Assembly: GCA_002689325.1 (NCBI GenBank)
Contig: NZFP01000024.1
Coordinates: 1-44,925, forward strand
Source of the DNA: Rickettsiales bacterium
Lineage (GTDB): Bacteria > Pseudomonadota > Alphaproteobacteria > Methylaequorales > Methylaequoraceae
Length of the DNA stretch: 44,925 bases
Reading direction: 5' to 3'
The notes beneath the pieces were generated by a model that saw only the letters and a program-made list of their open reading frames with translations, was not told the origin of the DNA and did not search any database. Below, in pieces: positions 11,844 through 30,533 of this stretch. The translations under genes were made by a program, and so were the position numbers. The stretch's first letter is position 1. The number at the start of each line of letters is the position of its first letter.

Positions 11844-12827
11844 TTAGTTGGAGCACACTAATTCCCAATTTTCTTTAGATTCAAAAATTTTATTGAGAAG
11901 CATGTTGTTTAAATTATGACCAGTATGTGAAGTATAAAAAGACCCTAGCATTCTGAAGCCAGAAAGCGATAAATCTCCAATAAAGTCTAACACCTTATGT
12001 CTTACAAACTCATCAGAAAACCTAAGCCCATCTTCGTTTAATATCTTTGTATCATCAAGAACCACAGCATTTTTGAGACTACCTCCCAAAGCTAACTTCA
12101 TAGATCTTAATTTTTCAACATCTTTTAAAAAACCAAATGTTCGGGCATTGCATATTTGCGATTTATAAATATCAGGTGTTAATATTAACGAAATTGATTG
12201 CTTTCCTATTAGCTTATGGTCATAATTTATCTCACAAGAAATCATTGTTTGATCGAACGGAGAGACTCTTGCAACTTTACAACCATCTTTAACCTCAATA
12301 ACTTTTTTTATTCTAACAAAGTTTTTAAACTCCGACTGTTCATCAAATCCAGAATTTTCTAATTTTTTAACGAATTCATAAGATGAGCCGTCACAAACGG
12401 GGATTTCATTGCTGTCAAGATCAATAAAAATATTGTCAATTTCTAAACCATAACAGGCAGATAGAATGTGCTCAACTGTTGATATAGTGTTTCCTTGTTT
12501 GTCCGATAAAAGAGTACATAGTTGAGTTGACTTTACATTTCTGAAATCTGCTTTAAGTTTGATTCTTTTATTAGCTTTTGTAATTCTAAAAACGTAACCA
12601 GTATTAATTGGAGCTGGTCTTAAAGTCATTGAAACATTATTTCCTGTATGAAGACCAATTCCTTCAATAATGATGACTTTTTTTATTGATTTCTGTTTTT
12701 TTGCAAGAATAAACTTAGGGGGGGCGCTGGTAAGAACATTAGCGTTTTCATTAACTTTTAAATTAGCTTTTAACACAATCTTATAATAGAAAAAGTTTAT
12801 GTTTGTACAATTCACAAAAAGTTTCAC
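11844..12827 (-). CDS. lpxC: UDP-3-O-acyl-N-acetylglucosamine deacetylase
   Basis: EGIGLHTGNNVSMTLRPAP, STVEHILSACYGLEIDN, RHKVLDFIGDLSL, SFYTSHTGHNLNN. Confidence 0.96.
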   Translation of the reverse strand: MKLFVNCTNINFFYYKIVLKANLKVNENANVLTSAPPKFILAKKQKSIKKVIIIEGIGLHTGNNVSMTLRPAPINTGYVFRITKANKRIKLKADFRNVKSTQLCTLLSDKQGNTISTVEHILSACYGLEIDNIFIDLDSNEIPVCDGSSYEFVKKLENSGFDEQSEFKNFVRIKKVIEVKDGCKVARVSPFDQTMISCEINYDHKLIGKQSISLILTPDIYKSQICNARTFGFLKDVEKLRSMKLALGGSLKNAVVLDDTKILNEDGLRFSDEFVRHKVLDFIGDLSLSGFRMLGSFYTSHTGHNLNNMLLNKIFESKENWELVCSN

Positions 12828-12839
12828 TTTGTTTCAAAG

Positions 12840-14054
12840 CTATGCATAACTCTCTTCAATCCAATTATCAATTTTATCAATTATTTTAGTGAATTGATTA
12901 TTTGCGAACTTAGGTCCTAGATTGTAAAGTCGAAATTGGTTGACTAATTTTATCATCCCAAAAGTAGTGCTAAATTCTGGTCTATCTCTTAAAGAATTAT
13001 TTCCAGAAAAGTTTTTAACCACACGTGTTTTTCTGTTAAATATATTTTCACAAATGTTCTTAATACCAAAAATCTTACTGGCACCTCCAGTTAAAACTAT
13101 TGATTTGATAGCAATTCTTGCATTAATATTATCAAAAACTTTATCTCTGACAATTTCTAGTATTTCATCATACCTAGGTTTTATAATTCCATAAATTAAA
13201 TTTTTATTAATAACTTTTTTTTTTCTTGAATCTAAATTTATTTCTATGTCTTCATTAAATGGTGAGACAACAGATCCATACATAATCTTTGTTAATTCAG
13301 CCGTTTCCTCAGAAATTTGGAGTCCATGACTCAGGTCTGAGGTTACGTTATTTCCAGCTAATTTTAGATTCTCTACAAAAATAATATTATTTTCTACATA
13401 CACAACGATTTTAGTTGTATTTCCTCCAATATCAATGCAAACAACCCCTTCATTTTTTTCTTCAATTGATAGTGAGGACATAGAAGAGGCAATACCAGAT
13501 TCAAAAAACTTTGTTATGTTAATTTTATTTTTTTTAAACGTAGAATTTAAATTTTCAATATAGAAATTGTTGACGAAAATATTATAGCTTAATAAGCTTA
13601 ATTTACTACATTTTTTACCGAATGGATTATGTGTAACGGTTTTTTCATCTAGGATGAAGTAATTAGGATTTGAATGAACTAAATATTTATTTTTTTCAAT
13701 TGCTTCGTTGAGACTTTTTCTATAAATCTTTTTGACTTCCTTCTTTGAGATTCCAAGTTTACCCGAGTTAATGTCTGTTTTTTTTTTTTTAATTAATAAA
13801 TTAGGATCTGTGATATTACAAAAAAACTCCTTTTTCATGGTTTTATTGCCAACCTTATTAATCAGTAATTTAATTACTGATGAAAATTCGTTAATATCAA
13901 TTAATTTATTGTTTTTGATACCCTTACTTTTATGATGTTCAATTCGGTTAACGATAGGTTTATTACCGTGAATCTGAAAAGCTACTGCTGCTGTTTTGTG
14001 AGAACCAGCATCTATTGCTATGTATTGTTTATTATTTTTTAAGAAGGGAAACAT
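12840..14054 (-). CDS. ftsA: Cell division protein FtsA
   Basis: IAIDAGSHKTAAV, VCIDIGGNTTKIVVY, IVLTGGASKIFGI; C-terminal amphipathic-helix-like tail IDKIDNWIEESYA. Confidence 0.92.
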   Translation of the reverse strand: MFPFLKNNKQYIAIDAGSHKTAAVAFQIHGNKPIVNRIEHHKSKGIKNNKLIDINEFSSVIKLLINKVGNKTMKKEFFCNITDPNLLIKKKKTDINSGKLGISKKEVKKIYRKSLNEAIEKNKYLVHSNPNYFILDEKTVTHNPFGKKCSKLSLLSYNIFVNNFYIENLNSTFKKNKINITKFFESGIASSMSSLSIEEKNEGVVCIDIGGNTTKIVVYVENNIIFVENLKLAGNNVTSDLSHGLQISEETAELTKIMYGSVVSPFNEDIEINLDSRKKKVINKNLIYGIIKPRYDEILEIVRDKVFDNINARIAIKSIVLTGGASKIFGIKNICENIFNRKTRVVKNFSGNNSLRDRPEFSTTFGMIKLVNQFRLYNLGPKFANNQFTKIIDKIDNWIEESYA

Positions 14055-14737
14055 TTTTCTGTTTTACTAAGATAGATTCTTTCCAGTACTCTCATATCAT
14101 AAAATCTATGGTCACGATATATTTTTGAATTTTTAATTTTTTTTTCAAAAAAACTTAGAACTTTATTTATTTTTTTCTCTGGTAAAATCAAACATGTTTT
14201 ATCACGTAGAATTAACTGCCAACCAGTATTTTCATAATAATAAATATTCTTAATTAATGATTTAAATTGAACTTTTTTGTTAAGAACATTATTCAATTTG
14301 GCAAATTTTTCTTTATTTAAATATCCTGATATTTCAATTAATTCATCGGTTTCAAATGCAGAAAATCTTAAAACATTGCCTTCATCATCAATAAATTTTT
14401 TTTTATTAGAGAATGTCCATATCATGTAAGGGGTTTTTTCAACAATAAAAATATGAAGAATACCATTTTTTTTTAAAGTAAAATTATAACTTTCAATCTC
14501 ATTAATTTTTTCAAAATCTTTTTTTAGCCTTTCAGGATTAAAACTCCAAAAATAATCTCCTTTCTTTAAATAAATTGAATCAAGAATAAGTTTTGCTTTT
14601 AAGTTTTTTAGATTTTCTATATGTATTTCTGATATTTTCTTATCAAAAGAGTTTTTAAAAAAGTTAGAAAAATAATCTTTTTTAAAAAAAATAGAAATTA
14701 TTAAAAAAATACCTGCGATAAAGATCAAATTTCGCAT
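14039..14737 (-). CDS. ftsQ: Cell division protein FtsQ (POTRA domain)
   Basis: N-terminal TM, POTRA-like IHIENLKNLKAKLILDSIYLKKGDYFW, EKTPYMIW, and position between ddl and ftsA. Confidence 0.85.
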   Translation of the reverse strand: MRNLIFIAGIFLIISIFFKKDYFSNFFKNSFDKKISEIHIENLKNLKAKLILDSIYLKKGDYFWSFNPERLKKDFEKINEIESYNFTLKKNGILHIFIVEKTPYMIWTFSNKKKFIDDEGNVLRFSAFETDELIEISGYLNKEKFAKLNNVLNKKVQFKSLIKNIYYYENTGWQLILRDKTCLILPEKKINKVLSFFEKKIKNSKIYRDHRFYDMRVLERIYLSKTEKCFPS

Positions 14738-15639
14738 ATAGAATTCTTCAGTAAAATCTTACAAAGTTTAAGAAAAGAAATTCCTTTTTCTTTAGCCATT
14801 TCGGGAAGTAACGAATTTTTCGTAAGACCTGGCTGTGTATTAACTTCAAGTAGATATATTTTATTTGCTTTTTCATTGTACCTGAAGTCTATCCTACTAA
14901 TACAATTACAGTTCAATGATGAATGAACTTTAAGTGAATTTTCAATTAATTCTTTTTCAATCTCTCTTGGAAGTTTGGGATTTATTATGTGCTCTGCAAT
15001 GTTGATATATTTATTATCATAGTTGTATAATTCTTCTTTGTACTTAATTTCCATTAATCCACATATTTTGTTTTCTAAAATTCCAACCGTTAATTCTCTT
15101 CCCTCAATAAACTCTTCAATTAGCATTCTTGATTTTTTTATTATCTTATTATTTAAATATTTATTCAAAGATTCTTTATTATTTATTTTAATTAAACCAT
15201 AACTTGAACCACCGTTAATCGGCTTAATGATAAGAGGAAATTTTAATTTTTGACTTCTAATATTAATTTCATTTATAGATTGGGGAGTGGAAATACTTAA
15301 ACTTTTAAATAGTTTTTTAGAAATAATTTTATTCATTAAAATAGCTGAAGTTAAAACTCCAGAGTGAGTATAAGGAATCCTTAAATAATTTAGTATTGAT
15401 TGGATTTGTCCATCTTCTCCAAAGTTTCCATGTAAACAATTGAAAATAACATTAGGTCTATATTTTTGAATTTTGCTGAGAAATTCCTGAGCATTGTCAG
15501 AAACATCAAGTATTTTTGTTTTTAACTCATTTTTTATTGTCTCATAAACGTGGTTGGCTGAAAGTTTAGATATATTTCTTTCCTCCGAAATACCTCCACT
15601 AAGAATAAGAATTTTTTTAAATTTTTTTAAACTGACCAA
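14725..15639 (-). CDS. ddl: D-alanine--D-alanine ligase
   Basis: LSGGISEERNIS, HGNFGEDGQIQSIL, IIKPINGGSSYG, EFIEGRELTVGIL, LEVNTQPGLT. Confidence 0.95.
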   Translation of the reverse strand: MVSLKKFKKILILSGGISEERNISKLSANHVYETIKNELKTKILDVSDNAQEFLSKIQKYRPNVIFNCLHGNFGEDGQIQSILNYLRIPYTHSGVLTSAILMNKIISKKLFKSLSISTPQSINEINIRSQKLKFPLIIKPINGGSSYGLIKINNKESLNKYLNNKIIKKSRMLIEEFIEGRELTVGILENKICGLMEIKYKEELYNYDNKYINIAEHIINPKLPREIEKELIENSLKVHSSLNCNCISRIDFRYNEKANKIYLLEVNTQPGLTKNSLLPEMAKEKGISFLKLCKILLKNSICEI

Positions 15640-16522
15640 CTCTTATTAACTCCCAATCAAGATTAATATTATATCTTTTTTTTACCTTACTTCTTATCTC
15701 CTCACCTAATAATTCAAGATCAAGTGAGTTTGCATTTGCATTATTAATTAAAAAATTTGTATGTAAATCAGATACTTTTGCCCCACCTATAACCTTTCCT
15801 CTGAAATTTATTTTATCTATAAGTTTCCATGCAGACTCTTTAGGCGTATTTTTGAAGGTACTTCCACCTGTTCTAAAATTTATGGGTTGGCTCAATGTCC
15901 TTTTTTTAGTTATTTTCTTTAACATTTCTTTAATTGTTTTTTTATTCTTTGTTACAGCTTTAAATTTTGCTTCGATAACTATCGAGTCTCTTGGAATCGA
16001 AGAAAACCTATAATTAAAAATTAAATTTTCTTTTAGAATTTCCTTAATATTTCCATCTCTGTCAATTATTTTACAAGATATCAGTCTGTCGCTTATTGAG
16101 GACCCGAAACAGCCGGCATTCATTTTAATATTCCCACCCAACGTCCCGGGGATACCCCTTAGAAATTCAAAGTTTCCTATTGAGTTTTCATAACAAAATT
16201 TTGAAATATCTAGATCTTTAGCTGCACTACCAATATTTATTATTTTTCTTTTTTTTATGTAATCAATTTTTTTGAAGTCTTTTCCTAATTTAATTGTAAT
16301 TCCATTAATACCACCATCTCTTACTATAAGATTTGAACCTGCACCTATTAAAAAAATTGGTTGTGAATTTGGAAGAACTTTTAAGAGGAATTTTAAGCTT
16401 TTTAAATTATTGATGACAAGGAGCACTTTTGCTTTGCCACCAGTACCAAACCATGTTTTTTTTCCGATATCGTAGTTGATCTTAATATTGATCAAATCTT
16501 TAAAAAAGTGATTTATTAACAT
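15617..16522 (-). CDS. murB: UDP-N-acetylenolpyruvoylglucosamine reductase
   Basis: TWFGTGGKAKVLL, IGAGSNLIVRDGG, FLRGIPGTLGGNIKMNAGCFG, RTGGSTFKNT. Confidence 0.96.
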   Translation of the reverse strand: MLINHFFKDLINIKINYDIGKKTWFGTGGKAKVLLVINNLKSLKFLLKVLPNSQPIFLIGAGSNLIVRDGGINGITIKLGKDFKKIDYIKKRKIINIGSAAKDLDISKFCYENSIGNFEFLRGIPGTLGGNIKMNAGCFGSSISDRLISCKIIDRDGNIKEILKENLIFNYRFSSIPRDSIVIEAKFKAVTKNKKTIKEMLKKITKKRTLSQPINFRTGGSTFKNTPKESAWKLIDKINFRGKVIGGAKVSDLHTNFLINNANANSLDLELLGEEIRSKVKKRYNINLDWELIRVGQFKKI

Positions 16523-17913
16523 TTTTTTTTAAAAAATTTATTAAATTTGTTTGCTGTTTTGCTACTAAGGCCTGCACCTAAAAAAATAATATTATTACCT
16601 GGGATCATTTTTTCTTTTAGTTTGTCAAAAAAAAATTTATCGTATTCAGATAAATATATATTTTTATTAGTATATTTTTCTTTGAGTTTTTTATAAAAAA
16701 AAGCACTATCAATATTATTTTTTTTTTTTTCTCCGGCACTAAATACAGGTAAAATAAAAATTTGATTAGAATTTTTAAAGCAGTGAATAAAATCATTCAT
16801 CATTGCTGAAATTCTGGAAAATCTGTGTGGCTCAAAAATAGAAATTATTTCTTTTTTTGTGATTTGTTTTAAGGATTTAAGAGTTTCTTTAATTTCAATT
16901 GGATGATGTGCATAATCATCAATTATTAAGTTATCTTTTGATTTGTGCAGTACTGTGAATCTCCTTTTAACCCCTGAAAATGTTTTTAGTGCTTTTTTAA
17001 TCTTCGGATACGGGATTTTTAACTCCCTTGAAACACTTATTGATGATAAAATATTTTTTACATTATGATCCCCCAATAGCGGTGATATAAAATTTTTCAG
17101 TATTTTTTTTTTTTCAAAATTTTCTACTAAGTCGAATGAAGTAAGAAAAGAATTATTTTTTTTTATAATTTTAACATTCGTTGCGGAATAATTACATTGT
17201 TGCGACAATCCATAAGTTATTATTTTTTTTCCGTAAATTTTTTTTTTAATTTCCCTTACATTTTTACAATCTATTCCAAGTGATAAGAAACCATAAAAGG
17301 GAATATTTTTGGAGTATCTTAAAAAAGCTTCTTTTAAATGCTTGATATTTTTATAATAATCAACGTGCTCAAGATCAATATTATTTATAACACCTATTGT
17401 AGAAGGTAAATGTATAAATGAGCCGTCAGATTCATCAGCTTCTGCAATAATCCAATCTCCTTTTCCAAGTTTTGCATTAATTTCAAGACTATTAATTATT
17501 CCACCACTTAAAATGGTAGGGTCCATCCCTGAGTTTTCAAAAATTGAAGCTATCAAAGACGTTGTGGTTGTTTTTCCATGTGAACCTGAAATTGTAATTG
17601 ATGATTTTAACCTCATTACTTGAGCTAACATCATTGCTCTTGAAAAGACAGGAATTTTTAGTTTTTGTGCTGTGAGAAGTTCAATATTATTTTTTTTAAT
17701 TGCAGAGGAATAAACGACTATATCAGCATCGTTAATATTGCCTGCTTTATGTGAAATGGAGATTTTCATTCTTTTTCTAAGTCTTTTAATTATTAAGTTC
17801 TCAGATAAATCACTTCCTGAAACTTTAAAACCTTTCTTATAAAGAACCTGAGCAATACCACTCATTCCAATTCCACCAATTCCAATAAAGTGTATGTGTT
17901 TTTTTTTTAACAT
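16516..17913 (-). CDS. murC: UDP-N-acetylmuramate--L-alanine ligase
   Basis: HFIGIGGIGMSGIAQVL, TISGSHGKTTTTSLIA, EADESDGSF, DDYAHHPIEI. Contains an intact A13 codon run (16718-16730). Confidence 0.96.
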   Translation of the reverse strand: MLKKKHIHFIGIGGIGMSGIAQVLYKKGFKVSGSDLSENLIIKRLRKRMKISISHKAGNINDADIVVYSSAIKKNNIELLTAQKLKIPVFSRAMMLAQVMRLKSSITISGSHGKTTTTSLIASIFENSGMDPTILSGGIINSLEINAKLGKGDWIIAEADESDGSFIHLPSTIGVINNIDLEHVDYYKNIKHLKEAFLRYSKNIPFYGFLSLGIDCKNVREIKKKIYGKKIITYGLSQQCNYSATNVKIIKKNNSFLTSFDLVENFEKKKILKNFISPLLGDHNVKNILSSISVSRELKIPYPKIKKALKTFSGVKRRFTVLHKSKDNLIIDDYAHHPIEIKETLKSLKQITKKEIISIFEPHRFSRISAMMNDFIHCFKNSNQIFILPVFSAGEKKKNNIDSAFFYKKLKEKYTNKNIYLSEYDKFFFDKLKEKMIPGNNIIFLGAGLSSKTANKFNKFFKKKC

Positions 17914-17916
17914 ATA

Positions 17917-18948
17917 TCACTTGAGCATATCATTAATGATGTCTACTAGAGAAATTTTTTTTGTTTTTCCTTTTAGTTTTATTTTTTTATTTTTTTTTTC
18001 AAAAAGATTTGATTTTATTATTTTGACAAGTTTTTCATAATTAATTTTTGATTGATTTATGATTTCACAATCATTTGTTTTTTTAAATTCAACAGCATTG
18101 AAATATTGATGGTTGTTTGCTGCGGTGGGTAGTGGAACAAGAATACAAAACTTTTTGAAATACTGAATTTCTGCTAAACTAGATGCTCCACACCTACTAA
18201 TAATAAGGTCTGAACTATAAATTTCTTCATAAATATTTGAAAAAAAGTTTTGTAATTTATATTTTATATTTAAATCTCTATAAAATTTTTCCATTTTTTT
18301 TAAATCTTCTTTTCTTATTTGTTGAACAACTTGAATCTTTTTTAAAAGACTTTTGTCTAATCGTAAAATAATATTTTCTATTATTTCACTAAAAACCTTG
18401 GCTCCTTGACTACCACCAATTATTAGAATTTTTTTTTTTTTATTTTTATTAAATTTTTTTTTTACTTTTAACTCTCTGATCGGTATTCCTGAAAAAATAG
18501 CAGATGTATCAGCAAAAACAGTATTTTTATATGTAATGGCTGTTTTATTAGAAATTTTTGAGAGAAGTCTGTTAGTTTTTCCCATTACAGAATTTTGTTC
18601 ATGTATTAATATTTTTTTATTTAAAACTTTGGCTGCAAGTAGTGTTGGTATAGAAGTGTAACCACCAAAACCAACTACTAATGCAGGTTTAAATTTTACA
18701 ATTAAATAAAGGGAATAAATAAAACCGTAAAAAATTTTAAAAAGCGAAATAATTACTTTAAATATATTTTTTTCTAATTTACTAGATGAAATGAGATGAT
18801 ATCTAAGGTTATTATTTAACAAAATTTTTTCTGTTCGCTTATCAACTAAAAAATGTAATTGCGATTTTTCAAAATATTTTGAAACGGCTATTGCAGGAAA
18901 TAAGTGTCCACCAGTGCCACCAGCAACTAAAAAAATAGTTTTATTCAT
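17917..18948 (-). CDS. murG: Lipid II synthase (UDP-GlcNAc transferase)
   Basis: VAGGTGGHLFPAIAV, VVGFGGYTSIPTLLA, HEQNSVMGKTNRLLS, ISRCGASSLAEI. Contains an intact A13 run (18429-18441). Confidence 0.96.
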   Translation of the reverse strand: MNKTIFLVAGGTGGHLFPAIAVSKYFEKSQLHFLVDKRTEKILLNNNLRYHLISSSKLEKNIFKVIISLFKIFYGFIYSLYLIVKFKPALVVGFGGYTSIPTLLAAKVLNKKILIHEQNSVMGKTNRLLSKISNKTAITYKNTVFADTSAIFSGIPIRELKVKKKFNKNKKKKILIIGGSQGAKVFSEIIENIILRLDKSLLKKIQVVQQIRKEDLKKMEKFYRDLNIKYKLQNFFSNIYEEIYSSDLIISRCGASSLAEIQYFKKFCILVPLPTAANNHQYFNAVEFKKTNDCEIINQSKINYEKLVKIIKSNLFEKKNKKIKLKGKTKKISLVDIINDMLK

Positions 18949-20041
18949 TTTTTATAACTTTCAATAGTACCATAATAAATCCAATTATTATTGCGTTGGA
19001 TAAAAAAGAAGAACCTCCATAAGAAATAAAAGGTAGTGTCATACCTTTTGTTGGTAACAAATTTATGCTGGTAGAAATGTTAATAATGGTTTGGAAAATA
19101 AAAATATTTCCTAAACCTAAAGTAGAATTAAGAATAAAAAAATTATTAGTTTTCTGAGAAATAAAAAAAATTCTTAAATATATCATAAGATATAAACCAA
19201 TAATTATAATTATGGCCAGAATACCAAATTCTTCACCAATTAAAGCAAAAATAAAATCTGAATGTGCATCCGGCAAATTCTTCGATATATTTCCATTACC
19301 TAGCCCCTGGCCGAATAGCCCTCCATTGGCAAACGACTCTAGGGATTTGTTTATTTGATAATTATCGCCTACATTTCCAAAAAAAAAATTATTTATTCTA
19401 AAGTGTACATGGTCTAAGAGAAAATAACTTGTAGCAAAAACTACCAAAAAAATGAGTATTATTGGAGTTAATATTTTAATGTCTAATTTTGAATTAAATA
19501 TTTGAATAATCCAAATCAAAAATATTAGTAAAAACATTCCAAAATCAGGTTGTCTGAGAAGAATTAACCCTATTAGAATAAAAATAAAAATATTAATTAA
19601 AAAGGAAAGGTCATTTTTAGTTTTAAACCTTGACAATAAAAGGGCACTTATAACTATAAAGCTAGGCTTAATAATTTCAGATGGTTGAAATGAGAAACCT
19701 AAAAATTTAATCCATCTACTAGCACCCTTTGTTTCAGGAAAAAAAATTATAGCAGACAAAGATAAAAATAAAGAAAAACAGAAAAAAAATATACTAATAA
19801 AAATTAGGTTTTTAATTGTAAGTCTTGATAAAAAACAAATAATAAAAAAACCTAGAAAACAAAAAACTAAATGTTTTTTGAATAATAAATCATATTTTTC
19901 ATCTATACGGGTTGATGCACTGAAGACTGCAAAAATTCCTACAAACATTAACAGTATTACGGAAAAAAAAATAAATTTATCTAAGTTGTTAAAAAAATTA
20001 ATTATATTACTTTTTCTATCCCGCACTTTTAATAATTCCAT
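18941..20041 (-). CDS. ftsW: Peptidoglycan polymerase/lipid II-associated SEDS protein FtsW
   Basis: Polytopic; KGASRWIKFLGFSFQPSEIIKP, GLFGQGLGNG, LPDAHSDFIFALIGEEFG, LPTKGMTLPFISYGGSS. Confidence 0.96.
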   Translation of the reverse strand: MELLKVRDRKSNIINFFNNLDKFIFFSVILLMFVGIFAVFSASTRIDEKYDLLFKKHLVFCFLGFFIICFLSRLTIKNLIFISIFFFCFSLFLSLSAIIFFPETKGASRWIKFLGFSFQPSEIIKPSFIVISALLLSRFKTKNDLSFLINIFIFILIGLILLRQPDFGMFLLIFLIWIIQIFNSKLDIKILTPIILIFLVVFATSYFLLDHVHFRINNFFFGNVGDNYQINKSLESFANGGLFGQGLGNGNISKNLPDAHSDFIFALIGEEFGILAIIIIIGLYLMIYLRIFFISQKTNNFFILNSTLGLGNIFIFQTIINISTSINLLPTKGMTLPFISYGGSSFLSNAIIIGFIMVLLKVIKNE

Positions 20042-21405
20042 TAACTAAGGTTTTAAATTTATTTCCTCTTTGTTCAAAATTTTTATATTGATCAAAAGAT
20101 GAGCAAGCCGGTGAAAAGATAATATTGATATTTCCTTTTTCCTTTAATGCTTTTTTTACCGCAGCTAAAAGAACACTTTCAAGTTTATTGAAACACACAG
20201 ATTTTATTCCTTTTTTTATAAGATATTCTTTAAATTCTTTTCCTGCTTGACCAAAACTAAATGCATATTCAACATTTTTAAGAGAAGAGTCAATACCGTC
20301 TAAGCCTCCTAATTTTTTTCTTCCACCAAGAATCCAATAAATATTTTTGAACGAATTTAAAGCATTTCTAGAAGATTCAATATTTGTTGCTTTGCTGTCA
20401 TTGTAAAAAAAAATATTTTTTAAATTTCCAACTAACTCTAACCGATGCTCTAAACTAAATAATTTTTTTAAAGAATTTTTAAATTGTTTTTCATTTTTTT
20501 TTAATAAAAAGTTCACTGCATAAGCTGCAAGAAAATTTTCAAAGTTATGTTTAACTTTTGTAAACATTATCATGTTATAATCAAAAAATATTTTTTCATT
20601 ACTAAGCTTATTTACTATGAGAATACCTTCTTTTTGATATTCCAAATAAATGCCATCTTTTATTTTTTGTTTTGTACTGATTTTTATAAGTTTTGAAGAA
20701 AATCTTTTATTAAAATTCAAAGCAATTTTTTTGCAACTATTATCATCTATACATATTATAGAAAAGCAATTTTTGTCTTGATTACTAAAAATTTTTATTT
20801 TTGAGTCTTTATAGTTTTTAAAACTTCCATGCCAATCAATGTGGTCTTTTGAAATATTAAGAAGTATTGAGATGTTAAATTTCAACGTATCAACTTTATC
20901 TAGTTGAAATGATGAGGCCTCAACAACAAAAATATCATTATCATTTGTTTTTTTGATGACATCTCCTATTGGTAAACCAATATTACCACAAGCAATTGTC
21001 CTTTGTATTTTTGACAGCAAACTCAATTGAATGAACTTTGTGGTAGTAGATTTTCCATTGGTTCCTGTCACCCCTATTTTTAAATTTTTTTTTTTTAAAA
21101 ATTTCTATTAGTTCAAGGTCTGATATTAGTTTTACTTTATTTTTTTTTGCCTTTTGAATGATTGGGCTTACATCTTTATGTCTGTGATTTATTATTGGGC
21201 TTGTAATAACATAATCTATTTTACTAAAGTCTAGAGAGTTGTAATTTTTAATATTTAGTTTTTTTTGTTTGGCATTCGTTCTTTTTTTTAAATTGTCATC
21301 CCAACAAAAAATAGAATATGATTCTTTTTTTAAGAATAATGCAGCTGATAAACCAGAAGTCCCTAAACCATAAATAAAGAATATTTTTTTCTTTGAAACA
21401 CTCAT
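20016..21405 (-). CDS. murD: UDP-N-acetylmuramoylalanine--D-glutamate ligase, apparent frameshift at an A12 tract (T12 on +, 21085-21096)
   Basis: ORF 20983-21405 (YGLGTSGLSAALFLKKE...SDLELIEIF) and ORF 20016-21071 (MTGTNGKSTTTKFIQ...SPACSSFDQYKNFEQRGNKFK) are halves of MurD. Removing one A restores ..EIFKKKNLKIGVTGTNGKSTT.. Confidence 0.93.
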
Positions 21406-22490
21406 CTTAGTTTTAAGCTAGCAAGACCAAGTAATGCAAGAATTATTGCGATAATCCAGAATCTTATAACTATTGTTGATTCTGACCATCCTTTTTGTTC
21501 AAAGTGATGATGAATGGGTGCCATTCTAAAGATCCTTTTACCTGTAAGTTTGAAGGAAATTACTTGAGCAAAAACAGATAAAGCCTCTAACACAAATACT
21601 CCGCCAATAATAACCAAAATTATTTCATGTTTAGTTGCTACTGCAATTGCTCCAATCGTCCCTCCCATTGATAATGAACCGGTATCTCCCATAAAAACCA
21701 TTGCTGGGGGAGCATTGTACCACAAAAATCCTAAACCAGCTCCAATTAGTGCTGCGCAAATTATCACTAATTCACCAGTATCGCTAATGTAGGGTATTTT
21801 TAGATATTCCGAGTAAATAAGATTTCCTGTAAAGTAGGTTATAAAGGCAAATGATAAGGCCGAGATCATAATTGGTCCTATAGCTAGACCATCGAGTCCA
21901 TCGGTGAGATTTACAGCGTTGGCACAACCAACTATTACTAAGGATCCAAAAAAATAATAAAAAATATTTAAGTCAATGAAATAACCTTTAGTGAAGGGAA
22001 TATAAACTACATTAACTAACTCTTGATTAATGGTTGAATTAAGCATGAAAATAAAAATAAAAGAAATTGAAAATTCAAGAATTAACCTTAATGAACTATT
22101 AATTCCATTAGGGGAATTTGATTTAAGCTTTTTATAATCGTCACATGCTCCTACAAGACCAAATAAAATAGTTATACTAAAAACCAACCAAAATAAATTA
22201 CTACTCAAGTCTCCCCATAAAATAATTGAAAAAAAAAGTGAAATTAAAATCAACATTCCACCCATTGTTGGGGTACCTACTTTACTTATTAAATGATTTT
22301 TAGGACCATCTTTTCTAATAGGCTGTCCTTCTTTTTGAATTTTTTTTAAAATTTTTATTAATTTTGGTCCCAAAAATAAGGATATAAAAAAGGCTGTAAA
22401 CAGAGCTCCTCCTGCTCTAAAAGTAAGGTAGTTGAATAGGTTGAGAAAATGAAAGTTTTCAATAATAGGTATAAGAAAGTAATAAAACAT
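21402..22490 (-). CDS. mraY: Phospho-N-acetylmuramoyl-pentapeptide transferase
   Basis: GTPTMGGMLIL, NLTDGLDGLAIG, FMGDTGSLSMGG, APIHHHFEQKGWSE. Confidence 0.97.
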   Translation of the reverse strand: MFYYFLIPIIENFHFLNLFNYLTFRAGGALFTAFFISLFLGPKLIKILKKIQKEGQPIRKDGPKNHLISKVGTPTMGGMLILISLFFSIILWGDLSSNLFWLVFSITILFGLVGACDDYKKLKSNSPNGINSSLRLILEFSISFIFIFMLNSTINQELVNVVYIPFTKGYFIDLNIFYYFFGSLVIVGCANAVNLTDGLDGLAIGPIMISALSFAFITYFTGNLIYSEYLKIPYISDTGELVIICAALIGAGLGFLWYNAPPAMVFMGDTGSLSMGGTIGAIAVATKHEIILVIIGGVFVLEALSVFAQVISFKLTGKRIFRMAPIHHHFEQKGWSESTIVIRFWIIAIILALLGLASLKLR

Positions 22491-22494
22491 AAAA

Positions 22495-23874
22495 CTATTT
22501 TTCTTTTAATTTTTCACAAATTTTTGATAAATTAATTGAGTTAGACCCTTTAATCATTACAATATCATTATCGTCTATTTCTTCAATTAATCTTTCGTAT
22601 ACCATGTGATAGGTTTTATAATGAAAAGTTTTTAGATTAGGCTTTGCATTGTCACTAATTATTTTAGAAAAAGAACCGATCGTAACTAATAATTTAGGAG
22701 ATACTTTTTTTACTATGTCTGAAATTTTAAAATGTAGCTCTTCTGAAAATTTTCCAAGTTCTAACATATCACCAATTACTAAAACTAATTTTTGATTTTT
22801 TTTAAGAATTTGATTTGCATTAAGAATAGCATACTTAAGAGTATGTGGGCTTGAATTGTATGTTTCGTCAATTAAAAAAAATTTTTTTTTATTTTTAAAT
22901 ATTTTTATTTTTTCTCCTCTTCCATACAGAGGTTTTAAACTTTCAATGCTTTTTTTAAAATCAACAAAATTAAATTTTAAAATATATAAAATGATGAGAA
23001 TTATTAATGAATTTTCTTCCCAATATTTAAAATAGTTTTTTTTCGTGAGTGAAACTTTTTTTCCAAATATAGAAAAAATAAATTTATTTTCTTTTATTTT
23101 ATTAAAACTTGAATCTGAGTTTTCCTCAATCCCAAATAAAACAATATTTTGAGTCTTACTAGTGGCTCTTTTAATTAGTAATTTCGAATATGGAGAGTCA
23201 TTTGGAATTAAAGCAAATGATTCTTCGTTGAGGAAATCATAAATAGATGCTTTTTCTCTTGCTATATCCTTAGGATCGATAAAATTTCCAATGTGTGCTA
23301 AACCTATATTAGTAATTATAGAAATTGTGGGTGAAGCAATTTTAGTAAGTTTTTTTATCTCTCCTTTACAATTCATGCCAAGCTCTAAGATGCAGACCTC
23401 AGTATTGATAGGCATGTTAACTAAAGAAAGTGGCATTCCTATTTCATTATTAAAATTTCCAGGATTAAAATAAGTATTTACTCTTTTTTGCAGAATTTTT
23501 CCTGTCCATTCTTTTAAAGAAGTTTTTCCACTACTCCCTGTAATACAAATCATATGAAGGCTTTTATTTTTTTTTCTTGCGTAAGTGGCTAGCTTTTGAA
23601 GAGATTCCAGAGTATTTTTAACAAAAATTTTATGAATCGAACTATTTTTAATTTTGTAATTTTTTTTATTTTCAACTAAACAAGCTTTTACTCCAAAATC
23701 TGAAACATCACTAATAAAATCATGACCATCATATTTTTTTCCAACTATTGGAATGAAAAAGTCATCAGCACTGATTTCTCTTGAATCTATTGAAATTTTT
23801 TGAAATTCAATATTTTCTGTGTAGTTAAATTTCTTATTTAAAGCTTTATAAATTTCTTTTAGGTTCCAAGACAT
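22495..23874 (-). CDS. murF: UDP-N-acetylmuramoyl-tripeptide--D-alanyl-D-alanine ligase
   Basis: ITGSSGKTSLKEW, NNEIGMPLSL, LELGMNCKGEIKKL, YNSSPHTLKYAI, GDMLELG. Confidence 0.95.
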   Translation of the reverse strand: MSWNLKEIYKALNKKFNYTENIEFQKISIDSREISADDFFIPIVGKKYDGHDFISDVSDFGVKACLVENKKNYKIKNSSIHKIFVKNTLESLQKLATYARKKNKSLHMICITGSSGKTSLKEWTGKILQKRVNTYFNPGNFNNEIGMPLSLVNMPINTEVCILELGMNCKGEIKKLTKIASPTISIITNIGLAHIGNFIDPKDIAREKASIYDFLNEESFALIPNDSPYSKLLIKRATSKTQNIVLFGIEENSDSSFNKIKENKFIFSIFGKKVSLTKKNYFKYWEENSLIILIILYILKFNFVDFKKSIESLKPLYGRGEKIKIFKNKKKFFLIDETYNSSPHTLKYAILNANQILKKNQKLVLVIGDMLELGKFSEELHFKISDIVKKVSPKLLVTIGSFSKIISDNAKPNLKTFHYKTYHMVYERLIEEIDDNDIVMIKGSNSINLSKICEKLKEK

Positions 23875-23881
23875 ATTTTTT

Positions 23882-25357
23882 TCATTTATTTATCAATTCT
23901 ATTACTGTTTCTTTGTCACTAAAAAAAAACTTTCTATTTTTAATGATTTGATAATTCTCATGCCCTTTACCAGCAATTAACAAAAAATCATTTTTTTCTA
24001 AAACATTAATACAATATTGAATTGCCTTTTTTCTACTAGGTATTTCTTTGATATAAACTAATTTTTTTTTAGGTGTTTTTGAGGTCATATCTTTTCTAAT
24101 TTGTTGAGGATCCTCATTTCTTGGGTTATCATCTGTGATGATAATCTTATCTGATAATTTTAATGCCTCTTCAGTCATTAGTGGTCTTTTTGATTTGTCT
24201 CTCTCTCCGCCACAGCCAATTATTGTTATTAATTTTCCTGTACAAGATTTTTTTAATGCTGATAAAACATTTTTAAGAGCATCAGGTGTGTGTGCATAAT
24301 CAACAAATATGTTAAGGTCTTTTTTATTATTTATTTTTTCAATTCTTCCTGGAGGGTTTTTCAATTGTTTAATAAACTCAAAATCTGTTTCTCTTAAATC
24401 TTTTCCAAAAACAATCAACAAAGCACAAATTTTATTGTAAATTTCATAAATACTAAAACTTTCAAAACAAATATTAAATCTTTGATTTTTGATAGATAAG
24501 AATACATTAAAAGTATTACTTAGTTTGTTGATTTTCCTTATTTTTAAAAATTTTGCATTTTTACCAAAATCAATAACTTCAATTTTTTTTTTTTTACAGA
24601 TATCAAAAAAAAATTGTGAGTATCGGGAATCAGTATTGATTATTCCTAAAGACTTATTATTAGTATAATTTTTAAAAAGAAGTCCTTTTGAATTTTTATA
24701 TTTTTTAAAAGATTTATGATAGTCTAAATGATCAATTGTTAAATTTGTAAAAACTACTTTATTAAATTTAAGTGGATAAAGTCTTTTTTGATCCAACCCA
24801 ATGCTTGATGCCTCAATAACTGCTTTTTTACATCCTTTTTTTGAAAGAAAGCTTAGATTTCTGTGAATATCTTGTGGTTCAGGAGTTGTTAGATTTGTTT
24901 CAAGAATTTTTTTTGTTTTATAAATTATCCCCAGTGTTCCAATACTACAGCAGCTTATTTTTTGAAAGTTCCAAATTTGTCTTGTATATTCTGCTATACT
25001 TGTTTTTCCATTTGTACCAGTTACTGCAACTATTTCGTTTAGTGATTTGGGATAAAAAAAATAAGAAATTTCCGCAATTAGCTTTCTCACATTATCAGTT
25101 TTGATAATTGTTATATTATTATTTCCTTTGTATTTTTTAGTATTTGACTTTATTGATAGAACTATTACCAAATTTTTAAATAAAATTAGGTCTTTGATAA
25201 ATTTTTCTCCGTTAAACTTTTTACCTTTAATTGCTCCAAATAAAAAATTGTCTTTTATATCTTTAGAGTTAGTGCTTAAACCTTTTAAATTTATATTTTT
25301 GATATTTTCTACAGTAAATTTTGATTGACATTTTTTGAGAATTTTTTCTAATTTCAT
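23882..25357 (-). CDS. murE: UDP-N-acetylmuramoyl-L-alanyl-D-glutamate--2,6-diaminopimelate ligase
   Basis: VTGTNGKTSIAEY, EASSIGLDQKRLYPLKF, DYAHTPDALKNVL, GCGGERDKSKRPLM, DNPRNEDP (DAP-type). Intact A13 run (24583-24595). Confidence 0.96.
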   Translation of the reverse strand: MKLEKILKKCQSKFTVENIKNINLKGLSTNSKDIKDNFLFGAIKGKKFNGEKFIKDLILFKNLVIVLSIKSNTKKYKGNNNITIIKTDNVRKLIAEISYFFYPKSLNEIVAVTGTNGKTSIAEYTRQIWNFQKISCCSIGTLGIIYKTKKILETNLTTPEPQDIHRNLSFLSKKGCKKAVIEASSIGLDQKRLYPLKFNKVVFTNLTIDHLDYHKSFKKYKNSKGLLFKNYTNNKSLGIINTDSRYSQFFFDICKKKKIEVIDFGKNAKFLKIRKINKLSNTFNVFLSIKNQRFNICFESFSIYEIYNKICALLIVFGKDLRETDFEFIKQLKNPPGRIEKINNKKDLNIFVDYAHTPDALKNVLSALKKSCTGKLITIIGCGGERDKSKRPLMTEEALKLSDKIIITDDNPRNEDPQQIRKDMTSKTPKKKLVYIKEIPSRKKAIQYCINVLEKNDFLLIAGKGHENYQIIKNRKFFFSDKETVIELINK

Positions 25358-27030
25358 TCTGAGTTCATTTTAATGTAATTATTTCTATTTAAGATCGGTG
25401 ATATTTTTTTCAGTATTCTTGAAAAAGTTGGTGCTGCAGTATTACCTCCAAAACTTTCCAATGACTCACTTTTGTTTCTTCTTGGTTCATCAAAAAGAAC
25501 AAACGCTATGTATTTTGGTTGATCTATTGGAAATGCACCTATAAAAGATGTTATAACCTTTTTCTCTGAATATTCACCATTTTCTAGTTTTTTTGAAGTC
25601 CCTGTTTTTCCTCCAGCCTTTATTCCTTCAACGTTAGCCTTTTTAGCTGTACCATTTTTTACAATCTCACTAAGTAGTAAGTTTATTTTCTTTGAAGTGG
25701 TATCTTTTAAAATCTTTTCTTTTGAATAATTTTCGTTGAGGTTAACTTTTGGTTTAATTTTGTAACCCCCATTAACCAGAGCAGCATAGGATGTTACCAG
25801 ACTTATTGGTGAAATTGACATTCCATAACCATAACTTATAAATTTAGAGGCTTGTGAATCCCAATTTTTAGGTAATTTATTTTTTACAACATTGAGGCCG
25901 TAAAGCGAAATTTGATTATTTATGCCTAACTTTTGAAATAATTCCTTTTGTTTTTCTATTCCTAGTTCTTCAACTATATTGATACTTCCAACATTGGATG
26001 ATTGTGTAAAAACTTCCTTAAAATTAAGTTCACCTTTTTTAATGTGTTCATCAATTATCAGCTTATCTTTAGTGATTTGATAACCATTTTTTATTAAAAA
26101 TTTTTTTTTTTCAAGTTCTGAGTTATTTTCATATACTAAAGCTGCATTAAAAATTTTAAGTGTAGAACCCATCTCGTATCTTGCCTCAAATGCTAGATTA
26201 TTTTCACTAAAAGCTTGAATATCCTCTGGATGATTGGGGTTGAAATCTGGAAGAGAGACTAATGAAATGATTTCGCCATTGTTAACATTCATTACAATTG
26301 CTACTGCAGAATTAGCGTTATAGAGTTTTAGACTTTTAGATAATTCCTCATGAACTTTATGTTGAACTCTTAAATCTAAAGTTAATGATATATCAGTTCC
26401 TTCCTTTAAATGCTCATCTAAGTTTCTCTCGATTTTACTTTTAAGTTCTAATGATTTAAAGCCGGTTAGATGAGAAAAAAGGCTATGTTGTAAGTAAATT
26501 CTCTTACTCGATTTGTGAAAGTTTATACTTGGGTCTCCAATTCTCTTCAATTGCTTTTCTTCATTAATTGTTATGAAGGGTTTTATTTTGATGTATTGCT
26601 TTTTTTTAAAAATATTTTCAAAGTAATTTTCCTTTTTATAAGGGAAAATATTTTGAAGCTTTTTTTTTAAATCATTTTTGTCTAAGATTTTTCTAGGATC
26701 TATATAAAAATCTTTTGTGTCAATATTAGTTGCAATTAATTCACCATTTCTATCAAAAATCTTACCTCTTTCTTTTTTTGTTGATTTTGAAAATGAATTA
26801 AAACTCTCATTACTAACAAAAAATTTTTGAAGATTAAAAATAATTAAACAAAAAAAAAATAATATTAATGTTAAAACATACTTATTTATCTTCTTTGCAT
26901 GTTGAACTAGGTCTTTTTTTTTTTCTAAATTAAATAAATCATTTTCATCTTTAAATTTTAAATTTGTAGAAAGGTTTTTGTTCCTTGATGGAAAAACGTT
27001 TTCATAAATATATTTATCTGTTGGTTGCAT
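25354..27030 (-). CDS. ftsI: Septal peptidoglycan transpeptidase (PBP3-type)
   Basis: RGKIFDRNGELIATNI, MGSTLKIFNAAL (SxxK-like), SSNVGSI, AGGKTGTSKK (KTG). Confidence 0.95.
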   Translation of the reverse strand: MQPTDKYIYENVFPSRNKNLSTNLKFKDENDLFNLEKKKDLVQHAKKINKYVLTLILFFFCLIIFNLQKFFVSNESFNSFSKSTKKERGKIFDRNGELIATNIDTKDFYIDPRKILDKNDLKKKLQNIFPYKKENYFENIFKKKQYIKIKPFITINEEKQLKRIGDPSINFHKSSKRIYLQHSLFSHLTGFKSLELKSKIERNLDEHLKEGTDISLTLDLRVQHKVHEELSKSLKLYNANSAVAIVMNVNNGEIISLVSLPDFNPNHPEDIQAFSENNLAFEARYEMGSTLKIFNAALVYENNSELEKKKFLIKNGYQITKDKLIIDEHIKKGELNFKEVFTQSSNVGSINIVEELGIEKQKELFQKLGINNQISLYGLNVVKNKLPKNWDSQASKFISYGYGMSISPISLVTSYAALVNGGYKIKPKVNLNENYSKEKILKDTTSKKINLLLSEIVKNGTAKKANVEGIKAGGKTGTSKKLENGEYSEKKVITSFIGAFPIDQPKYIAFVLFDEPRRNKSESLESFGGNTAAPTFSRILKKISPILNRNNYIKMNSE

Positions 27031-27284
27031 TATTTATTTTCTAGAATAATCCAATCTTCTTGTTGAATAGGATTTAATCTAAACTCTTCATGATTAATTT
27101 CTTTTAATTTTTTGGGACTTGAAATATAAGCAAAATCAATTTCAAGCTTTTCTATCTCGTTCTCAATTTTACTTATTTTTTGTGTGAGAATTTTGACTTC
27201 ATTCTCTTGATTAATCAAAGATAATTTAATTGTAATTGTGATAACAGTTAAAATTATTATATTTATAAAAAAAATTAATTTCAT
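27030..27284 (-). CDS. ftsL: Cell division protein FtsL-like
   Basis: Small protein, single N-terminal TM plus coiled coil, between rsmH and ftsI. Confidence 0.75.
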   Translation of the reverse strand: MKLIFFINIIILTVITITIKLSLINQENEVKILTQKISKIENEIEKLEIDFAYISSPKKLKEINHEEFRLNPIQQEDWIILENK

Positions 27285-28156
27285 AAGATTTCTGCTACTC
27301 TCATTCTAGCTGACCTAGATCTTGGGTTGATTTTTATTTCCGTTTCATTTGGGATTATAGGTTTTTTTGTTAAAATTTTTAAAAATTCTTTGTTTCTTAA
27401 AAAAAAATTTTTTATTACTTTATCCTCTAACGAATGGAATGCTACTGTAATAATTTTCCCCCTTTTTTTTAGAAATAGAAGACTTTTTTTTAAAGTTATA
27501 TCTAGTTCATTCAACTCATCATTTATATAAATTCTTAGGGCCTGAAACACTCTTGTGGCAGGGTGCTTTTTTTTATAACTATTTACCTTTTTGATTAATT
27601 CAACTAATTCAAATGTGGTTGAAATCTTTTTTTTTTTTCTAAATTCAATAATTTTCTTAGCAATCTTTTTTGAGTTTCTTTCTTCACCATAATAATAAAA
27701 AATATCACTTAAATTATGTTGGTCAAATTCATTAATAATTTTTTTTGCAGTTAAATTTAAACTCTCAACATCCATTCTCATGTCAAGTGGACCATTATTA
27801 GAGAATGAAAAACCTCGGTCCGGATTATTAAGTTGAGTATTGGAAATACCTAAATCAAAAATTAAACCGTCAATTTTTTTTATATCATTTTTTTTTAAAA
27901 CATAATCTAATCTGCTAAAGTTATTGATGTTAAAAATAAAATTTTTAGGGTATTTTTTTTTTAGTAACTCAGCATATTTTTTTGCATCTTTATCTCTATC
28001 AATAGCAATTATATTGCATTCAGTGTTTTCTAATATTTTTCTACAATACCCACCTTGTCCAAATGTGCAATCAACGTATGTTTTAGATTTATCTGGAGCC
28101 AAATAAGATAAAACTTCATCAACCATTACCGGATGATGTTTTAATTTTGAACACAT
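27281..28156 (-). CDS. rsmH: 16S rRNA (cytosine1402-N4)-methyltransferase
   Basis: HHPVMVDEVLSYL, DCTFGQGGYCRKIL, DLGISNTQLNNPDRGFSF, TRVFQALRIYINDEL, AFHSLEDKVIKNFF. Confidence 0.96.
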   Translation of the reverse strand: MCSKLKHHPVMVDEVLSYLAPDKSKTYVDCTFGQGGYCRKILENTECNIIAIDRDKDAKKYAELLKKKYPKNFIFNINNFSRLDYVLKKNDIKKIDGLIFDLGISNTQLNNPDRGFSFSNNGPLDMRMDVESLNLTAKKIINEFDQHNLSDIFYYYGEERNSKKIAKKIIEFRKKKKISTTFELVELIKKVNSYKKKHPATRVFQALRIYINDELNELDITLKKSLLFLKKRGKIITVAFHSLEDKVIKNFFLRNKEFLKILTKKPIIPNETEIKINPRSRSARMRVAEIL

Positions 28157-28158
28157 TT

Positions 28159-29634
28159 TTAGTTAGCTTGTCTTCTCAAGAATGCTGGTATTTGCAATAG
28201 GTCATCCTCTTTACGTTCCGACTCCGTTTCTCCGTCATAATGATTGTAATCATCAATCATATCAAATTCAGACTCAGATTTAATTTCTTCAATACTTTGA
28301 TTGGATAGATTTTGTAATGTATCTTTTTCTTTATCTTCTAGATTGTTATTTGTATCTGAAATATTCTGATCTTCGTTTGTTGTGTTACTTTCATTTTTCA
28401 CATTATATTTTAATCCAAAAATTTTTGAAAAAATTGATTTTTTTTCTTGAGGAGTATTTTCTAATTTTTTTTCAATTTTAAGATCATTTTCTTCTATTTT
28501 CTTCGAAGTGTCCTGAAGGTCTACAAAAAAACTTGATTGAATTGTTTCTTGAGACTGCAAAACAGTATTTTGTTCGTCTTTGTCATCTATTTTTTTTTCT
28601 AAAGAGTCTTCTAAATGTCTGAGATTTTTTACGTTAGATTTTTCAACCATGTTTTGGTAGTAATTTTCGCAGTCAATTCCAGTTGAAATTACAGATATTT
28701 TAAATTTACCATCAAAATCTTCATCTTTTTGTACTCCCCAAATAATGTTGGCTTCATCATCTGATTCTTCTTGAACTCTGTTTATAGCTAAGTCAATGTC
28801 ATGTAAAGATGTGTCATCACTGCATGTAACGTTTATGAGGACTCCCCTTGCACCCTTCATACTATTATTTTCTAAAAGTGGATTTGAAATTGCCATTTCA
28901 GTAGCTTCCATTACTCTATTTTCTCCCTCAGAAACCCCTGTTCCTAGGTGAACTTTTCCTGTTTCACTCATTATAGCCCTAACATCAGCAAAATCGTGAT
29001 TCATTATTCCTGGATTAACCATTAAATCTATAATACTTTTTACACCATCTATCAGAACGTTATCAGCAAATTGCAATGATTCTACGAAAGAGGTTTGAGG
29101 TTTAGCTAGATGAAAAATATTTTGATTTGGAATAACAATTAGATTATCAACATATTTTTGTAACTCCATTATACCATCCCTAGCTCTTTTTATTTTTCTT
29201 TTTCCTTCCATTTCAAAAGGTTTGGTTACTACACCAACAGTTAAAATACCTAAATCTTTTGCAATTCTTGCAACAACAGGTGTTGCTCCAGTTCCGGTTC
29301 CTCCACCCATGCCTGCGGTAAGAAAGACCATGTGTGCACCTTCTAGGTAATCTTCAATCTCACCGGCAACTTCGTCGGCTGACTTTTTTCCCATCTCTGG
29401 GTCAGCACCAGCACCAAGCCCCATAGTACATGAAGGTCCTAATTGAAGAGTTTTTTCTACCTTTGAATGTTTTAATTGTTGACTATCAGTGTTAACATTT
29501 AGAAATTCAACCCCTTCTACACCTGATTCTTTCATACTATTTATTATATTACCACCAGCTCCTCCAACTCCTACAACAAGGATTCTTGGTGACATGTTAT
29601 TTACTTGAGATGGCATTTGAAGATGAAGTGTCAT
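28159..29634 (-). CDS. ftsZ: Cell division GTPase FtsZ
   Basis: VVGVGGAGGNIINSM, NTDSQQL, TAGMGGGTGTGATPVVA, NFADVRAIM-like region, variable acidic linker and C-terminal DDLLQIPAFLRRQAN conserved peptide. Confidence 0.98.
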   Translation of the reverse strand: MTLHLQMPSQVNNMSPRILVVGVGGAGGNIINSMKESGVEGVEFLNVNTDSQQLKHSKVEKTLQLGPSCTMGLGAGADPEMGKKSADEVAGEIEDYLEGAHMVFLTAGMGGGTGTGATPVVARIAKDLGILTVGVVTKPFEMEGKRKIKRARDGIMELQKYVDNLIVIPNQNIFHLAKPQTSFVESLQFADNVLIDGVKSIIDLMVNPGIMNHDFADVRAIMSETGKVHLGTGVSEGENRVMEATEMAISNPLLENNSMKGARGVLINVTCSDDTSLHDIDLAINRVQEESDDEANIIWGVQKDEDFDGKFKISVISTGIDCENYYQNMVEKSNVKNLRHLEDSLEKKIDDKDEQNTVLQSQETIQSSFFVDLQDTSKKIEENDLKIEKKLENTPQEKKSIFSKIFGLKYNVKNESNTTNEDQNISDTNNNLEDKEKDTLQNLSNQSIEEIKSESEFDMIDDYNHYDGETESERKEDDLLQIPAFLRRQAN

Positions 29635-29647
29635 ATTATTCTCCTTA

Positions 29648-30109
29648 TTACGTTCCTTTTGGTATGGGCCTTAGACGAGGGTTAATTTTTTTTTCCTGAG
29701 CATTTTTAATCATATTAATTTTTTTCTTTTCATATGATTCAGGATTCCACAACTGAAAAGTTGGACCAAGTCCGACAAACATAACATTTTTGTCAATTTC
29801 GGCATGATTGATTAGTTTTTTTGGAAGAATTACTCTTCCATCTTTGTCAAAAGGTAATTGTTCGGCTTCACCAAAATACATAGATATTAAATCAAACTCT
29901 TCACGAGAATAGTTTTCACTATCTAAGCTGTTAGATATATTTTCCATCCTTTGTATTCCGCAAGCATCAATTGACCTGTCGTTGTAGGAAGGAAAAGCAA
30001 TAATTCCTTTAAAAGATTGATTTTTTAATGAATTTCTAAAAGTTGAGGGAACAGAAACCCTGGATTTAGAATCCATTCTATTTATTATGGTAGATAAAAA
30101 TAAAGCCAT
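29648..30109 (-). CDS. mraZ: Transcriptional regulator MraZ
   Basis: RMDSKSRVSVPSTFR and LPFDKDGRVILPKKLINHAEI (tandem AbrB-like DXXXR modules), VGLGPTFQLWNPESYE. Confidence 0.95.
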   Translation of the reverse strand: MALFLSTIINRMDSKSRVSVPSTFRNSLKNQSFKGIIAFPSYNDRSIDACGIQRMENISNSLDSENYSREEFDLISMYFGEAEQLPFDKDGRVILPKKLINHAEIDKNVMFVGLGPTFQLWNPESYEKKKINMIKNAQEKKINPRLRPIPKGT

Positions 30110-30119: not shown

Positions 30120-30121
30120 TA

Positions 30122-30146
30122 TGGGATTATATGGGATAATATGGTA
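30122..30146 (+). promoter_or_regulatory. Putative MraZ operator: three TGGGN-type repeats with 10-bp period
   Basis: + strand TGGGA-TTATA-TGGGA-TAATA-TGGTA immediately upstream of the mraZ RBS. Matches the TGGGN + 5-nt spacer architecture established for E. coli MraZ, with the third unit degenerate. The repeats are on the strand opposite to mraZ. Confidence 0.7.
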
Positions 30147-30179
30147 TATTATGACACTTATCAAGTCAAAAAAAAAATA

Positions 30180-30533
30180 CTAGACGGTCTGTAAGCCGGA
30201 TTCTGTAAATCTACGTTTTGTAGAAGTTATGGTCATTAATCTTGGATAACTGTTACCAGTTAACTCTAGCGTCCTACCATGCTAAGTGCAGAACCACACT
30301 TGTCTAAAAGACTAAGCTTTTTTGGACTTGCTCCCAAAGGGGTTTACAATGCCATTTATGTTACCATAAAAGCGGTGGGCTTTTACTCCACCTTTTCACC
30401 CTTACCATTTTTCATGGCGGTTTTTTTTCTGTTGCACTTTCCCTAGGGTTTCCCCCGCCGGCGATTAACCGGCTTTGGTGTTCTGGTGAGTCCGGACTTT
30501 CCTCCTTTAAAAGGTGACCATACAACCGTCTAG
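30180..30533 (-). ncRNA. rnpB: RNase P RNA (bacterial type A-like)
   Basis: Minus strand 5' CTAGACGGTTGTATGGTCACC..GGAGGAAAGTCCGGACTCACC (universal CR-I) and 3' ACAGAATCCGGCTTACAGACCGTCTAG. The two ends pair as P1 (CTAGACGGT/ACCGTCTAG). Confidence 0.97.

Follow-up and report, generated by a model that had tools for sequence, protein, structure and literature searches.

The window analysed here, a stretch of 44,925 nucleotides of contig NZFP01000024.1 (assembly GCA_002689325.1), carries a complete dcw cluster in which ftsZ resides between mraZ and rsmH and is missing from between ftsA and lpxC. The same gene order is fixed in TMED127 (Methylaequorales) and in SAR11 (Pelagibacterales), and the position of ftsZ is therefore a lineage trait rather than a private transposition. 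The preliminary description of this DNA had regarded the order as peculiar to the genome, a view that it would give up if the order proved common among relatives, which is the case in the TMED127 contigs and 42 SAR11 genomes compared here. Most likely, ftsZ left the site between ftsA and lpxC in an ancestor and entered the gap between mraZ and rsmH, the gene order being otherwise unchanged, and this arrangement would then have been retained throughout TMED127 and SAR11, with ftsZ as the second gene of a putative MraZ-repressed operon.

Gene order of the dcw cluster

On the minus strand of the window, the genes follow each other in the order ampD, rnpB, mraZ, ftsZ, rsmH, ftsL, ftsI, murE, murF, mraY, murD, ftsW, murG, murC, murB, ddl, ftsQ, ftsA, lpxC, bamD and recN. 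At the front of the cluster, mraZ (29648..30109; NCBIfam MraZ models, E 1.7e-38) is separated by 13 bp from the relocated ftsZ (28159..29634; TIGR00065, 372.9 bits), whose C-terminus weakly matches the alphaproteobacterial FtsZ C-terminal domain model (23.5 bits), and a gap of 2 bp leads to rsmH (27281..28156; TIGR00006). At the far end, ftsQ (14039..14737; PF08478 and PF03799) and ftsA (12840..14054; TIGR01174, 206.3 bits) precede lpxC (11844..12827; TIGR00325, 321.4 bits). The ftsA-lpxC junction of 12 bp (12828..12839), presumably the former ftsZ site, has a neighbourhood common to TMED127 and SAR11. An open reading frame of 84 aa with a hydrophobic N-terminal segment (27030..27284, minus strand) constitutes a candidate ftsL on the basis of its position and this segment; both this candidate and ftsQ occupy their customary places in the cluster.

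Coordinates, gene order and the three gaps agree exactly with the preliminary description, whose proposal of a clean single-gene move of ftsZ, with the remaining dcw genes left syntenic, is likewise supported by the gene order. In addition, the search for a further copy that it had called for revealed no second ftsZ in the genome's own 1.3 Mb assembly (88.8% complete), the gene in the window being the sole one. Like other dcw clusters, that of the window is an unbroken run of division and murein genes headed by mraZ, and it shares with the SAR11-type order both the mraZ-ftsZ-rsmH front and the direct succession of ftsA and lpxC without an intervening ftsZ. Since only the adjacency of ftsA and ftsZ is lacking, with lpxC adjoining ftsA and ftsZ lying about 14 kb off, the arrangement is a variant of the dcw cluster.

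Two genes of the window appear in broken form. The murD gene (20016-21405, minus strand) is spread over two frames, broken at a poly-A run near 21085, and is single-framed in the relatives L002 and L003; the split is probably a homopolymer assembly error. Similarly, metF (81-936, plus strand) seems to be split into an open reading frame at 81-560, which matches profile positions 8-168 (of 287) and terminates in a run of lysines, and a remainder at 718-936 in a different frame, a second likely homopolymer error.

The region upstream of mraZ

Between ampD and mraZ lies rnpB, encoding a bacterial class A RNase P RNA (30176..30533, minus strand; Rfam RF00010, 277.7 bits). It is followed on the same strand by a promoter-like site, TTGATA-N17-TATTAT (30136..30164), found by a consensus scan, whose -10 element is overlapped by a MraZ-box-like array, ACCAT-N5-CCCAT-N5-CCCAT (30121..30145), directly before the mraZ start codon. 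Promoter-like matches in the region do not exceed chance (100 found as against 107.5 expected in shuffles), so that the case for this promoter consists of its position and its overlap with the boxes. By the same token, extra promoters may exist inside the cluster, given AT-rich DNA with promoter-like matches at chance level.

The boxes themselves are conserved: of the distinct sequences upstream of mraZ, all 19 from TMED127 and all 19 from SAR11 contain at least two boxes at a 10-bp period, while single-base shuffles are expected to yield 0.03 and 0.06 such arrays, respectively. With at most one mismatch, the three-box pattern occurs once in the whole genome to which the window belongs. Eraso et al. 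2014 are said to have described TGGG-type repeats at a 10-bp period as the type of site used by MraZ, and direct TGGGN-type repeats with this period, as expected of a MraZ-autoregulated promoter, are indeed present upstream of mraZ. Escherichia coli features TGGGA-N5-TGGGG-N5-TGGGA before mraZ, with the same 10-bp period; the window boxes read TGGG on the opposite strand and are thus reversed in orientation, which speaks against MraZ control, although other alphaproteobacteria examined show this reversed orientation as well.

As the preliminary description had stated, ftsZ is the first gene behind mraZ; it lies downstream of a promoter-like sequence with which the MraZ-type boxes overlap. From these sequence features we infer operon transcription, MraZ binding and a dosage effect, whereby the Z-ring dosage and the FtsA:FtsZ stoichiometry might be altered. 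With gaps of 13 and 2 bp, ftsZ would now be the second gene of a tight putative operon, which most likely starts at a single promoter whose -10 region is overlapped by the box array. In the simplest model, one MraZ-repressed promoter would drive mraZ-ftsZ-rsmH and onward, and, because of the overlap of the -10 element with the boxes, MraZ would repress itself and ftsZ together. Transcription of ftsZ under MraZ control is plausible on these grounds; the promoter-proximal part of the mRNA would then supply FtsZ, and its distal end FtsA.

Distribution of the order in TMED127 and SAR11

The taxonomic order of the window genome is represented by one family (f1) and 12 genera (g1-g12), in agreement with PMC12542740, according to which TMED127 (Methylaequorales) comprises just one family with 12 genera; from this we infer that the genome belongs to TMED127. 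All 17 TMED127 contigs that reach mraZ (17/17, taken from named records) read ampD-mraZ-ftsZ, and two further contigs start within ftsZ and then run into rsmH. Moreover, the ftsA-lpxC neighbourhood without ftsZ is present in TMED127 loci. On the single-cell contig AG-914-I17 (L006, 10001-11731), ftsZ is broken off and is followed by rsmH in reverse orientation at the end of the contig, a disruption that is probably a chimera of single-cell amplification.

In SAR11, mraZ is followed by ftsZ in all 42 distinct genomes read, which include HTCC1062 and were drawn from both families, and rsmH comes after ftsZ wherever the contig continues. The far end reads ddl-ftsQ-ftsA-lpxC-bamD without ftsZ, as in TMED127, although ftsQ and ftsA are too diverged for detection in some genomes. 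In two loci of the HIMB114 type (L130 and L135; G189 and G121), murG went undetected in the dcw cluster, whereas other SAR11 genomes contain it. The order is present in public SAR11 genomes, yet full-text searches, with subscription journals outside their coverage, retrieved no published description of the ftsZ-mraZ or dcw order for SAR11 or Pelagibacter, and SAR11 goes unmentioned in the TMED127 paper (PMC12542740).

A fragmented assembly and the two likely homopolymer frameshifts in murD and metF, which hint at base-level errors, could suggest that the order is an assembly artefact confined to one genome. However, since the mraZ-ftsZ junction recurs in 17 of 17 independent contigs from other TMED127 assemblies and in the 42 genomes of SAR11, with several of these consisting of a single contig, misassembly of this junction is ruled out, and such an artefact can be dismissed with near certainty.

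Survey of other bacteria

The survey of the class covered 153 genomes, which represent about 128 families of Alphaproteobacteria and include four without a listed FtsZ; in this sample, mraZ and ftsZ were neighbours only in TMED127 and in G121. The latter we take to be SAR11, its taxonomic order presumably including HTCC1062, HTCC7211, HIMB5 and HIMB114. Canonical spacing was found in 94 genomes, in which ftsZ shares the strand of mraZ and follows it at a downstream distance of 13-23 kb. Where mraZ was undetected or located on another contig (41 genomes), the surroundings of ftsZ were read instead, and at the sensitivity used ftsZ never lay beside mraZ or rsmH in these; it either adjoined ftsA or stood apart from any dcw gene that could be recognised. 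Outside the Alphaproteobacteria, mraZ-ftsZ adjacency was found in none of the 54 genomes in which a single contig carries both genes.

The ftsA-ftsZ-lpxC succession is retained in the HIMB59 order (30 of 30 loci read) and in the order of G060 (5 of 5 loci), and the position of ftsZ is invariant within TMED127, SAR11, the HIMB59 order and family f23. Other rearrangements of the cluster also occur. In G061, presumably HIMB59, recN-bamD is divergent and adjoins ampD-mraZ, and the dcw cluster is split (L064 and L073), with mraZ-rsmH...ftsW about 865 kb from murG-murC-murB-ddl-ftsA-ftsZ-lpxC. In the G060 locus of family f23 (L060), ftsQ-ftsA-ftsZ-lpxC-bamD lies divergently and immediately upstream of mraZ, so that both dcw ends are joined, and in the gammaproteobacterial MAG co234_bin55 (L023, 2527-2817) ftsZ is found directly upstream of mraZ-rsmH.

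Origin of the shared order

A single relocation in an ancestor shared by TMED127 and SAR11, later than the separation of the HIMB59 and G060 (f23) lineages, is a tentative explanation that falls somewhat short of being probable; on this reading, the move of ftsZ would be an uncommon genomic event of single origin that groups SAR11 with TMED127 and leaves out HIMB59. Because the ftsA-lpxC and mraZ-ftsZ neighbourhoods match in both groups, source scar and insertion site are common to them, and the order is absent from every other alphaproteobacterial family sampled; the invariance of the ftsZ position within each of the four lineages points in the same direction. Alternatively, ftsZ may have entered the same gap twice, selected as a promoter-proximal, MraZ-controlled gene in small oligotrophic cells. 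The rearrangements in f23, divergent from mraZ, and in the gammaproteobacterial MAG show that ftsZ has been rearranged relative to mraZ in other lineages as well; nevertheless, none of the other approximately 126 alphaproteobacterial families sampled used this gap, and HIMB59, equally small and AT-rich, kept ftsA-ftsZ-lpxC, which renders such convergence possible but rather doubtful.

Trees were based on RNA polymerase, ribosomal and EF-G proteins (5,384 positions), on dcw proteins without FtsZ, RsmH and MraZ (3,968 positions) and on the combined set (9,352 positions). With tufA removed, TMED127, SAR11, the HIMB59 order and G060 share one region of the tree, which a few other lineages join in the SR4-recoded RNA polymerase/ribosomal tree. 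A TMED127+SAR11 clade withstands the AU test for RNA polymerase and ribosomal proteins (p=0.068 under SR4, 0.108 under LG) and for the combined data under SR4 (p=0.051), and these results permit a single relocation. On the other hand, dcw proteins reject the clade marginally under SR4 (AU p=0.0425) and also under LG+F+G4, and the combined data reject it under LG as well as under LG+C20 PMSF with full searches (AU p=2.6e-5, the unconstrained tree being taken from a search that ended before convergence), the opposing signal being spread across many transcription and translation genes. Moreover, most trees place HIMB59 and G176 beside SAR11 and TMED127 outside. Taken together, the sequence trees lean against TMED127+SAR11 under unrecoded models, and the separation of both groups in the unrecoded combined trees speaks for convergence. 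The rejecting trees, in turn, unite HIMB59 with SAR11, a grouping regarded as a compositional artefact (PMC6447387, PMC3815206), which argues for the single relocation.

Two further test results were discarded. An overwhelming rejection of the clade in the first AU test of RNA polymerase and ribosomal proteins was an artefact of tufA (358 of 387 log-likelihood units), which was dropped because some genomes were probably represented by the paralogue fusA. A fast PMSF comparison slightly favouring the clade was due to an incomplete search and was reversed by the full searches.

Horizontal transfer of the dcw front between the ancestors of TMED127 and SAR11 would accord with dcw proteins that are near neutral towards the clade, contributing about 5.5 of the 68 log-likelihood units against it under LG+C20 PMSF, while transcription and translation genes oppose it. 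However, the ftsA-lpxC scar at the far end would require transfer of the whole cluster or a second event, and the FtsZ+RsmH+MraZ tree is devoid of a supported sister relation, which makes such a transfer unlikely.

Significance for SAR11

SAR11 bacteria are among the most abundant cell types of the ocean, and their gene order suggests that their FtsZ would be expressed from the start of the same cluster whose far end supplies FtsA. As a lineage trait, the ftsZ order also bears on where SAR11 should be placed within the Alphaproteobacteria, a matter of dispute since sequence trees are led astray by compositional bias (PMC6447387, PMC3815206). A clean binary gene-order character found in SAR11 and in a single further order, but not in HIMB59, constitutes a composition-independent test; if the single origin holds true, it provides a composition-independent marker uniting TMED127 and SAR11 without HIMB59.

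Comparison with known systems

A close counterpart is the SAR11 cluster, for instance that of Candidatus Pelagibacter ubique HTCC1062, whose order ampD-rnpB-mraZ-ftsZ-rsmH-...-ftsA-lpxC-bamD is identical to that of the window, while the proteins are mostly about 30-55% identical and the spacers differ somewhat. The place of rnpB in this order follows PMC2704228, where the HTCC1062 RNase P RNA is mapped to the spacer at 38796-39447 that separates minus-strand mraZ from the gene beside it; in the genome read here mraZ ends at 38795, which agrees with this location and independently confirms the genome as HTCC1062. The canonical proteobacterial dcw cluster, as in E. coli (mraZ-rsmH-ftsL-ftsI...ftsQ-ftsA-ftsZ-lpxC), comprises nearly the same gene set in an otherwise identical order, with mraZ first and 10-bp-spaced MraZ-type repeats upstream. 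It differs by the location of ftsZ between ftsA and lpxC instead of mraZ and rsmH, by the opposite orientation of the boxes, and by murB, which lies inside the window cluster. Finally, the Mycoplasma operon mraZ-rsmH-MG223-ftsZ (PMC8475190) resembles the window in harbouring ftsZ within a short mraZ-headed operon, but there, in the wall-less Mollicutes, ftsZ is the fourth and last gene, behind rsmH.
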